39,565 bases of DNA. It comes from Halorhabdus amylolytica. Lineage in GTDB: Archaea; Halobacteriota; Halobacteria; Halobacteriales; Haloarculaceae. Below, piece by piece: positions 6,473 through 9,257 of this stretch; the stretch's first letter is position 1; each line of letters starts with the position of its first letter. The DNA lies in NCBI RefSeq assembly GCF_004944975.1, contig NZ_SPQG01000003.1, positions 82,578-122,142 on the forward strand, given 5' to 3'. The notes under the pieces are model-generated. The model searched no databases and was not told where the DNA came from. It saw only the letters and a list, made by a program, of their open reading frames with translations. The translations under genes and the position numbers were made by a program.

Positions 6473-6516
6473 AACATAAACTTTCTCCATGCGGCGGCGA
6501 CCGGGGAGTTTTAGGG
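6473..6516. promoter_or_regulatory. Divergent promoter region: small acidic gene (-) and polB (+)
   Basis: On the minus strand GTTTATGTT (6481-6473) serves the gene starting at 6443. On the plus strand GTTTTAGGG (6508-6516) is centred about 28 bases before the polB ATG at 6540. The plus-strand box rules out an upstream polB start at 6489. Confidence 0.5.
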
Positions 6517-6539
6517 TGACGGGCCGAACCAACGCTCCA

Positions 6540-9257
6540 ATGGCAGATTCCGGGAAACAACGTGGTCTCGGCGAGTTCGCCGAGGGGGCCGGCAGGCCCG
6601 CGGAGGAGGCCCAGGTCGTCGCCGGCAACGGTGGGCAGGGGGCGAACGTCGTCGAGACGGGCGAGTGGAAGTATCCCGAGAAAGAGGGCACCGTTTCACT
6701 GTCGGTCACGCAGGTCGACTACACGATCGAGGGCAGCGGCGACGACGAGTATCCCGTCTTGCACGTCTTCGGCCGCACGTCGGATCGCGAACTGGAACAC
6801 GTCCGCGTCTACGAGTTCAAGCCGTACTTCTATGCGCCGGTCGACTCCGTCGAGGAAGAACGACTCGCGGACTACGGCGCGATCACTGGCTGGCAGTATA
6901 CCGACGACGATGGTGATTCCTACGAGTCGATCCGTGGCGAGGAACTCGTAAAGATCTTCGGCCGGACACCGCGTGACGTCGGGCAGATCCGCGACGACTT
7001 CGAGCACTACGAGGCGGACATTCTCTTCCCGAACCGCCTGCTCATCGACAAGGACATCACCAGCGGTGTTCGTCTCCCCGAACGGCGCACCGACGACGGC
7101 TCGATCCGGATCCCCCACGACGAGATCGAGGCCATCGATTACGACGCCGAGGCACGCATCAATACTTTCGACATCGAAGTGGACGACCGCTCGGGCTTCC
7201 CCGAGGACGGCGAGGAGCCGATCATCTGTCTCACGAGCCACGACTCCTATCGCGACGAGTACGTCGTCTGGCTGTACGACTCCCCTGTCGGGATAGACCC
7301 GCCCGAGGCCCTCGAACAGTACGAACCCCTCGAAGACGACTTCGAGGCCGACGTGCGCGTCTTCGAGACGGAGGAGGCGATGCTCGCGGCGTTTCTGGAC
7401 TATATCGAAGAAACTGATCCTGATTTGACAACTGGATGGAACTTCTCGGACTTCGACGCCCCGTATCTCATCGACCGATTGCAAGAACTCGACCCGAAAA
7501 CAGACCGGAATCTCGACATGAATCGCCTCTCTCGGGTCAACGAAGTCTGGGAGAGCGACTGGCAGGGTCCGGACATCAAGGGTCGGGTCGTCTTCGACCT
7601 CCTGCGGGCCTACAAGCGCACGCAGTTCACCGAATTGGAGTCCTACCGACTCGAAGACGTCGGCCAGGCCGAACTCGACGCCGGCAAGGAGACTTACACC
7701 GGCGACATCGGCACCCTGTGGGAAGAAGATCCAGAGCGCTTGCTCGAATACAATCTCCGGGACGTCGAACTCTGCGTCGAACTCGATCGCAAGCAGGACA
7801 TCATCGCCTTCTTCGAGGAGGTGGCCTCTTTCGTGGGGTGTAAACTCGAAGACGCGCCCACGCCCGGGGACGCCGTCGACATGTACGTCCTCCACAAGGC
7901 CTTCGAGAACTTCGTTCTTCCCTCGAAGGGCACCGTCGAGTCCGGCGAGGAGTTCGAGGGCGGGGCCGTCTTCGAACCGATCAGCGGCATCAAGGAGATG
8001 GTAAGTGTCCAGGACTTGAAATCCCTATATCCGATGTGCATGGTAACAATTAACGCATCCCCGGAGACGAAGGTCGATCCCGAGACCTACGACGGGGAGA
8101 CGTTCCGTGCACCGGATCCCAGCGGCCAGCACTTCCGGAAGGAACCGGACGGCATCGTCCGGGAAATGGTCGAGGAATTATTATCAGAACGCGAAGAAAA
8201 GAAGGCACTTCGAAACGATCACGAGCCCGGAACCGAGGCTTACGAGCTCTATGACCGGCAGCAAGGAGCTGTCAAAGTTATTATGAATAGTTTATATGGC
8301 GTTTCGGGGTGGGATCGGTTCCGCCTCTACGACAAGGACAATGCGGCGGCCGTAACCGCAACAGGGCGGTCGGTCATCGAGTACACCGAGTCGGCCGTCA
8401 ACGATCTCGGCTACGACGTGACATATGGAGATACTGACAGTGTTATGATAAGTATGGGGACGGACATGTCCGTGGAGGACGCCATCGATCGTTCCTTCGA
8501 GATCGAGGAGGCCATAAACGCCTCCTACGACGAGTTTGCTCGCGAGACGCTGCACGCCGAGGAACACCGCTTCCAGATCGAATTCGAGAAACTCTACCGG
8601 CGGTTCTTCCAGGCGGGCAAGAAAAAGCGCTACGCGGGCCACATCGTCTGGAAGGAGGGCAAAGACGTCGACGACATCGACATCACAGGCTTCGAGTACC
8701 AGCGCTCGGACATCGCCCCCATCACCAAGCGCGTCCAGAAGGAAGTCCTAGACATGATCGTCACAGAGGGTGACATCGACGCCGTCACGGAGTATCTCCA
8801 CGACGTGATCGAGGACTTCCAGGCCGGCAACGTCAATCCGGAGGACGTGGGTATTCCAGGCGGGATCGGCAAGCGCCTGGACAACTACGACACCGACACC
8901 GCCCAGGTCCGGGGGGCGAAGTACGCCAACCTCCTGCTGGGGACGAATTTCGACCGCGGGAGCAAACCCAAGCGACTCTACCTCAAGAAGGTCCACCCCG
9001 ATTACTTCGAGCGTATCGAGGACGAACGGGGTCTCGATCCCTCGCGTGATCTCCTCTATGGCGAGTTCAAGCGGGACCCGGACGTGATCTGCTTCGAGGT
9101 CGCCGAACAGATCCCCGAGGAATTCGAGGTCGACTGGGAGAAGATGTTAGAGAAGACGCTCAGAGGGCCGATCGCCCGCGTTATCGAGGCACTCGACGTC
9201 TCCTGGGAGGAGGTCAAGAGCGGTCAGGAACAGACTGGTCTCGGTCAGTATATGTGA
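6540..9257 (+). CDS. polB: Family B DNA polymerase, intein-free
   Basis: This is the replicative-type DNA polymerase with 3'-5' proofreading. At 905 residues it has the normal length for an intein-less haloarchaeal PolB. Exo I is FDIEVD (about 210), Exo II GWNFSDFDAPYL (about 300) and Exo III YNLRDVELC. Polymerase motif A is D492-L-K-S-L-Y-P (usual SLYPS is SLYPM here), motif B K579xxxNSLYG (N583, Y586, G587), and motif C YGDTDS (D631, D633). The C-terminus ends in TGLGQYM, reminiscent of a PIP-like PCNA-binding tail. The start at ATG 6540 is set by the TATA-like box at 6508-6516. Codons in and around motifs A, B and C are markedly AT-rich compared with the rest (see findings). Confidence 0.95.
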   Translation: MADSGKQRGLGEFAEGAGRPAEEAQVVAGNGGQGANVVETGEWKYPEKEGTVSLSVTQVDYTIEGSGDDEYPVLHVFGRTSDRELEHVRVYEFKPYFYAPVDSVEEERLADYGAITGWQYTDDDGDSYESIRGEELVKIFGRTPRDVGQIRDDFEHYEADILFPNRLLIDKDITSGVRLPERRTDDGSIRIPHDEIEAIDYDAEARINTFDIEVDDRSGFPEDGEEPIICLTSHDSYRDEYVVWLYDSPVGIDPPEALEQYEPLEDDFEADVRVFETEEAMLAAFLDYIEETDPDLTTGWNFSDFDAPYLIDRLQELDPKTDRNLDMNRLSRVNEVWESDWQGPDIKGRVVFDLLRAYKRTQFTELESYRLEDVGQAELDAGKETYTGDIGTLWEEDPERLLEYNLRDVELCVELDRKQDIIAFFEEVASFVGCKLEDAPTPGDAVDMYVLHKAFENFVLPSKGTVESGEEFEGGAVFEPISGIKEMVSVQDLKSLYPMCMVTINASPETKVDPETYDGETFRAPDPSGQHFRKEPDGIVREMVEELLSEREEKKALRNDHEPGTEAYELYDRQQGAVKVIMNSLYGVSGWDRFRLYDKDNAAAVTATGRSVIEYTESAVNDLGYDVTYGDTDSVMISMGTDMSVEDAIDRSFEIEEAINASYDEFARETLHAEEHRFQIEFEKLYRRFFQAGKKKRYAGHIVWKEGKDVDDIDITGFEYQRSDIAPITKRVQKEVLDMIVTEGDIDAVTEYLHDVIEDFQAGNVNPEDVGIPGGIGKRLDNYDTDTAQVRGAKYANLLLGTNFDRGSKPKRLYLKKVHPDYFERIEDERGLDPSRDLLYGEFKRDPDVICFEVAEQIPEEFEVDWEKMLEKTLRGPIARVIEALDVSWEEVKSGQEQTGLGQYM

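Follow-up and report, generated by a model that had tools for sequence, protein, structure and literature searches.

Codon islands in polB of Halorhabdus amylolytica

The window analyzed in this work is a 39,565-nt stretch of Halorhabdus amylolytica DNA (contig NZ_SPQG01000003.1, positions 82578-122142). Its forward strand carries a family B DNA polymerase gene, polB (6489-9257), which was identified by its open reading frame and translation and by a match to Pfam PF00136. The gene contains 922 codons with a GC3 of 0.79 and encodes an intein-free protein of 922 aa. Two more family B polymerase matches were found in the same genome (G000:C12:46723-47706 and G000:C25:65106-65558, in frames of 741 and 760 aa, respectively).

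The original prediction placed A/T-rich codons over catalytic motifs A, B, and C of polB, and this was borne out. The GC content is 43% at 8001-8060 (motif A), 27% at 8271-8300 (motif B), and 33% at 8421-8456 (motif C); it is 39% at 8178-8213 and 41% at 7413-7441. In a clustering test, codons were permuted within the same amino acid (2000 permutations) and the variance of the A/T-ending count was determined in 10-codon windows. The observed variance of 3.00 exceeded both the mean (1.62) and the maximum (2.26) of the permuted genes, indicating that A/T-ending codons are clustered beyond chance. An artifact of amino acid composition was excluded by this permutation and by a logistic expectation specific to each amino acid and gene.

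The strongest islands in polB are located at Exo II (codons ∼300-317), motif B, motif C, and codons 559-577, and a weaker one is found at motif A. The Exo II island (7386-7445, z 4.5-5.5) is private to the H. amylolytica genome, and the equivalent intein point (TTGWN|F, between 7442 and 7443) is empty. The motif A island (7995-8057, z 3.5) has 9 A/T-ending codons out of 20 vs. 3.5 expected and surrounds the empty intein point DLK|SLYP (between 8021 and 8022), which is occupied in 18 family genomes. The motif B island (8253-8318, z 5.2-5.5) surrounds the empty point VIMN|SLYG (between 8288 and 8289), the commonest intein site of the family; the motif C island (8409-8456, z 4.6) surrounds the empty point YGD|TDS (between 8432 and 8433), which is occupied in 13 family genomes. 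The island upstream of motif B at codons 559-577 (8163-8216, z 3.8-4.3) contains the A/T-rich stretch 8178-8213 of the original prediction; the stretch is real, but it coincides with no intein site seen. All five islands are on the forward strand. Those at motif B, motif C, and codons 559-577 are common to Halorhabdus congeners, and the Exo II island is absent from them. The synonymous excess at codons 559-577 is family-wide in the family of H. amylolytica and weak or absent in other families. Strong islands were also observed between motifs B and C at codons 617-632 in the polB genes of L027, L065, L100, L200, and others; these coincide with no intein point seen and may be merged flanks or an unrecognized target.

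Intein points and island position in three genes

polB was matched in 139 of the 146 family genomes searched. Four polB intein points were detected among the mapped sequences: TTGWN|C (Exo II), DLK|SLYP (motif A), VIMN|SLYG (motif B), and YGD|TDS (motif C). All four intein-point islands of H. amylolytica polB correspond to points that are occupied in relatives. Exo II had been held against a link to inteins, as a milder A/T stretch at a place that was not a known intein site. In fact it is among the strongest islands, and the Exo II point is occupied in the Halorhabdus congener L036 by an intein of 449 aa with homing-endonuclease domains, so this objection falls. Other Exo II inteins are present in L091, L194, and four named genomes (L409, L431, L432, and L434). 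The +1 residue is Cys in occupied L036, L091, L194, and L432 and Phe in the empty alleles; the +1 change must therefore have accompanied insertion. Consistent with mobile elements, Pfam identified LAGLIDADG or Hom_end domains in congeners' inteins at Exo II and motif B and detected none in the motif A and C inteins tested. The polB-d allele listed in six Halobacteria (Soucy et al., 2014; PMC4071816) is likely the Exo II site.

We scanned ∼173 haloarchaeal polB genes for islands with the expectation fitted per gene and per amino acid and with intein information unused. Among the strong islands (z ≥ 4.5), 104 of 122 were within 16 codons of the four intein points, compared to an expected 16%; the proposed link between islands and intein sites holds and is stronger than the original prediction could tell. 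When each site was counted once per genus, 58 islands were at intein points and 17 elsewhere; in 5000 per-genus circular shifts, the number at these points averaged 11.7 and never exceeded 26. In a replication with 60 further named genomes, many of which are Halorubrum, 47 of 55 islands were at intein points. A single island at z ≥ 4.5 was detected in 20 intein-free methanogen polB genes. Left and right halves co-varied over the intein points with Spearman coefficients of 0.70 (B), 0.32 (A), 0.27 (Exo II), and 0.17 (C); sham points gave 0.08 with a maximum of 0.20, and the motif C value falls inside the sham range.

Two general accounts were tried and rejected. The islands are not a property of conserved motifs at large: they show no correlation with conservation, and no strong island was found in the ∼173 polB genes at Exo I, Exo III, or KKRY, which are equally conserved motifs without intein points. 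Nor are the same A/T-rich codons present family-wide whatever the intein history; the islands are distributed patchily among haloarchaeal polB genes, including those of close relatives, and averaging had masked patchy strong islands. In families with polB inteins, islands were found at 103 of 527 empty sites, vs. 2 of 56 in families without them.

The genome background of the host comprised, besides the window, a sample of ∼360 kb and the loci of DP2 and MCM. DP2 carries the top-scoring island among 258 host ORFs (99,020 codons), at codons 950-966 with a z of 6.3. The DP2 intein point N|C at 945, five codons away, is vacant in the host. The islands in 50 DP2 genes are mostly within ∼28 codons (∼85 bp) on either side of 945. 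A second DP2 intein occurs in other genomes after LPD(K/Q)RGG, near 974. A second cluster of DP2 islands at codons 525-545 (L238, L247, L258, L295, and L296) matches no verified intein point. Intein-free MCM genes display islands around PGTGK|S (331), SSAGL|T (358), and EQQ|S (411). In the MCM gene of the host (L213, 1694-7474 on the reverse strand, G000:C7; frame of ∼1930 aa), four points are occupied by inteins (331, 358, 396, and 411), which indicates that the host lineage has been exposed to inteins.

Codon changes in empty and occupied alleles

In island alleles most silent positions are changed across ∼20 codons, with amino acids near consensus and amino acid divergence hardly raised. 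Inside the islands leucine shifts to TTA/TTG (0.30, against 0.05) and arginine to AGA/AGG (0.15, against 0.02), and the G/C-ending codons at motifs A and B are twice as likely to disagree with the column consensus. We concluded that the change goes beyond simple A/T enrichment. After removal of selection bias the A/T-ending fraction is 0.16-0.46, which fits a plain loss of codon preference. In 13 Halorubrum species the codon identity drops to 0.59 at motif B and 0.45 at motif C, whereas the remaining gene stays at 0.81 and Exo I, Exo III, and KKRY at 0.81-0.84; in five Haloferax species the identity is undiminished at both motifs. Across genera, codon identity is 0.42 in the DP2 island and 0.66 elsewhere. 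One A/T-rich haplotype spread everywhere was rejected as a source, since cross-genus identity inside the islands is low, with few shared cases only. A viral source of the B and A haplotypes was not supported either, as two exact pattern scans of viral contigs gave no match, looser matches being possible.

Next, empty and occupied alleles were compared. At the DP2 left flank, z ≥ 4 was reached by 15 of 30 empty alleles vs. 1 of 20 occupied alleles (genus-stratified p = 0.0003). In polB, with z ≥ 3 and a background of 0.44%, islands were present in 13/155 empty and 0/18 occupied alleles at motif A, 9/170 and 0/3 at Exo II, 45/155 and 3/18 at motif C, and 39/113 and 23/60 at motif B. Since the species are non-independent, these pooled counts overstate the evidence and the genus-level tests are more trustworthy. 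Stratified by genus, the effect at the core codons of motif B was larger in empty than in occupied alleles (p = 0.017) and that at the outer codons was equal; the contrasts at motifs A and C were not significant. At the MCM-a left flank, z ≥ 4 was found in 8/30 empty and 1/20 occupied alleles, a difference that was not significant in a rank test (p = 0.39). The flanks of occupied alleles at A, Exo II, and DP2 are mostly ordinary and GC-rich, and synonymous divergence near the site is also raised in occupied alleles at B, C, and DP2. One motif C haplotype, CTT GAC AAA GAA GTT ATA TAT GG, was found in occupied L062 and L070 (with one-codon variants) and in empty L049 and L089. Near the intein sites, occupied alleles from different genera are no more alike in their codons than elsewhere.

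Possible origins of the islands

In haloarchaea, silent positions of essential replication genes have been rewritten at intein points, mostly at points that lack the intein; this is probably a footprint of repeated homing attack and possibly a protection from it. What we observed comprises the islands, where they lie, their confinement to the intein points of three genes, and the synonymous divergence inside them. We also observed that empty and occupied alleles differ at DP2 and, to a modest degree, at the polB motif B core. The islands are very probably footprints of intein homing in some form. Judged from sequence comparison, we estimate a probability of about 0.5 that these footprints reflect chiefly a synonymous escape from the homing-endonuclease target. 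In lineages exposed to inteins, the silent positions around the insertion point would diverge from the usual GC-rich target; the diverged alleles would be cut less often by the homing endonuclease and would remain empty, and silent changes would build up, sometimes being handed on as short converted tracts. Because nearly all preferred codons end in G or C, such divergence would appear as A/T-rich codons. The core-specific effect at motif B and the dependence on exposure suit escape; reduced cleavage by recoding, and selection for that reason, would be the steps we infer. Several observations argue against escape: the DP2 island (∼28 codons on each side) is wider than a homing-endonuclease target; occupied motif B alleles often have islands (23/60), and some motif C haplotypes are shared by occupied and empty alleles; the contrasts at A and C lose significance by genus; the flanks of occupied B, C, and DP2 alleles are diverged as well; and the A/T-ending fraction freed of selection bias, only 0.16-0.46, could come from a plain loss of codon preference. 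It may also be, although we hold this more tentatively, that silent alleles resistant to intein homing have arisen naturally and repeatedly in haloarchaea, at many insertion points of several essential genes, and that islands at empty sites are a readable record of homing pressure, past and present.

The main rival to escape is mutagenic repair, which predicts a similar pattern and which we consider unlikely as the chief cause. The endonuclease would cut empty sites repeatedly and error-prone repair of the resected ends would mutate the flanks; silent changes would survive and amino acid changes would be purged until the target is lost and cutting ends. Such repair, which Repar and Warnecke (2017; PMC5378118) put forward for introns of fungal mitochondria, accounts for islands wider than the recognition site (∼85 bp per side at DP2), for near-random codons (identity of 0.42 vs. 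0.66 in DP2), and for the larger effect at empty sites, and the moderate A/T fraction (0.16-0.46) suits it. However, the island borders are sharp and some haplotypes are common to several genera, and the left/right A-vs.-T asymmetry expected from deamination of single-stranded ends is not seen, which rules out deamination. The original prediction offered two readings, co-conversion scars and recoded homing-resistant targets, and the latter is the better fit, with the reservation that repair of breaks would leave much the same trace. Scars, in which flanks co-converted with inteins from AT-richer donors persist after intein loss, appear less probable than either escape or mutagenic repair. The co-conversion tracts of plant cox1 are a precedent (PMC3192709), and the occupied alleles with islands at B (23/60) and C (3/18) and the C-site haplotypes present in both occupied and empty alleles speak for scars, which are possible at these two points. 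Scars are contradicted elsewhere, since few or no occupied alleles carry islands at A (0/18), Exo II (0/3), and the DP2 left flank (1/20), and their mostly GC-rich flanks there fit co-conversion poorly. The mismatch at Exo II, Cys at +1 in occupied alleles and Phe in empty island alleles, means that precise deletion alone cannot have left the island alleles; scars are also disfavored by the finding that, in occupied alleles, codon identity across genera is not raised near the sites. Finally, a feature unrelated to inteins, such as translational slowing or an overlapping signal in the catalytic motifs, would accommodate the island at codons 559-577, which is frequent in the family and matches no known intein site. 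This reading is highly improbable and already largely refuted by island position: Exo I, Exo III, and KKRY have no islands, islands are almost lacking in the 20 intein-free methanogen polB genes and patchy in close relatives, and they recur at the DP2 and MCM intein points.

The nearest precedent is the mostly silent divergence that climbs toward the insertion point of mitochondrial introns without relaxed protein constraint (Repar and Warnecke, 2017; PMC5378118), and the Halorubrum identities at B and C follow such a gradient, with protein divergence hardly raised. That work concerns intron-exon boundaries within fungal mitochondrial populations, whereas the islands described here concern inteins in archaeal chromosomes, compared between species and genera, with strong islands at empty sites in three genes. 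The plant cox1 intron tracts (PMC3192709) are likewise short and silent, are located at a homing insertion point, and can outlast the element; the haloarchaeal tracts differ in being two-sided, in varying in sequence by lineage, and in being mostly missing from intein-bearing alleles at A, Exo II, and DP2. Among haloarchaea, natural mcm alleles that remain without the MCM-d intein are also known: a Pro at +1 is believed to prevent splicing, although the site is still recognized by the endonuclease (PMC10643990). In contrast, the island changes are synonymous, and their effect would be on the recognition of DNA. Our searches of an open-access library, which leaves out most subscription papers, gave no earlier description of such codon islands at vacant intein sites.

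The islands bear on how hosts escape homing elements that target invariant catalytic motifs; homing is thought to exploit the inability of such proteins to change. If silent-codon escape has taken place across many genera, resistance, exposure history, and the homing cycle would become measurable from sequence. In synthetic homing gene drives, functional targets with silent changes evade the nuclease. The islands would be a natural parallel to such resistance, found in many lineages and with many codons altered, and testable with existing Haloferax tools. One such tool is the plasmid homing assay of Naor et al. (2011; PMC3024317) in Haloferax volcanii, for which a value of ∼90% with long consensus flanks has been reported. 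Even if mutagenic repair or conversion is the cause, the islands mark intein target sites, because an intein-blind scan of the 258 sampled ORFs ranked the empty DP2 site of the host first.
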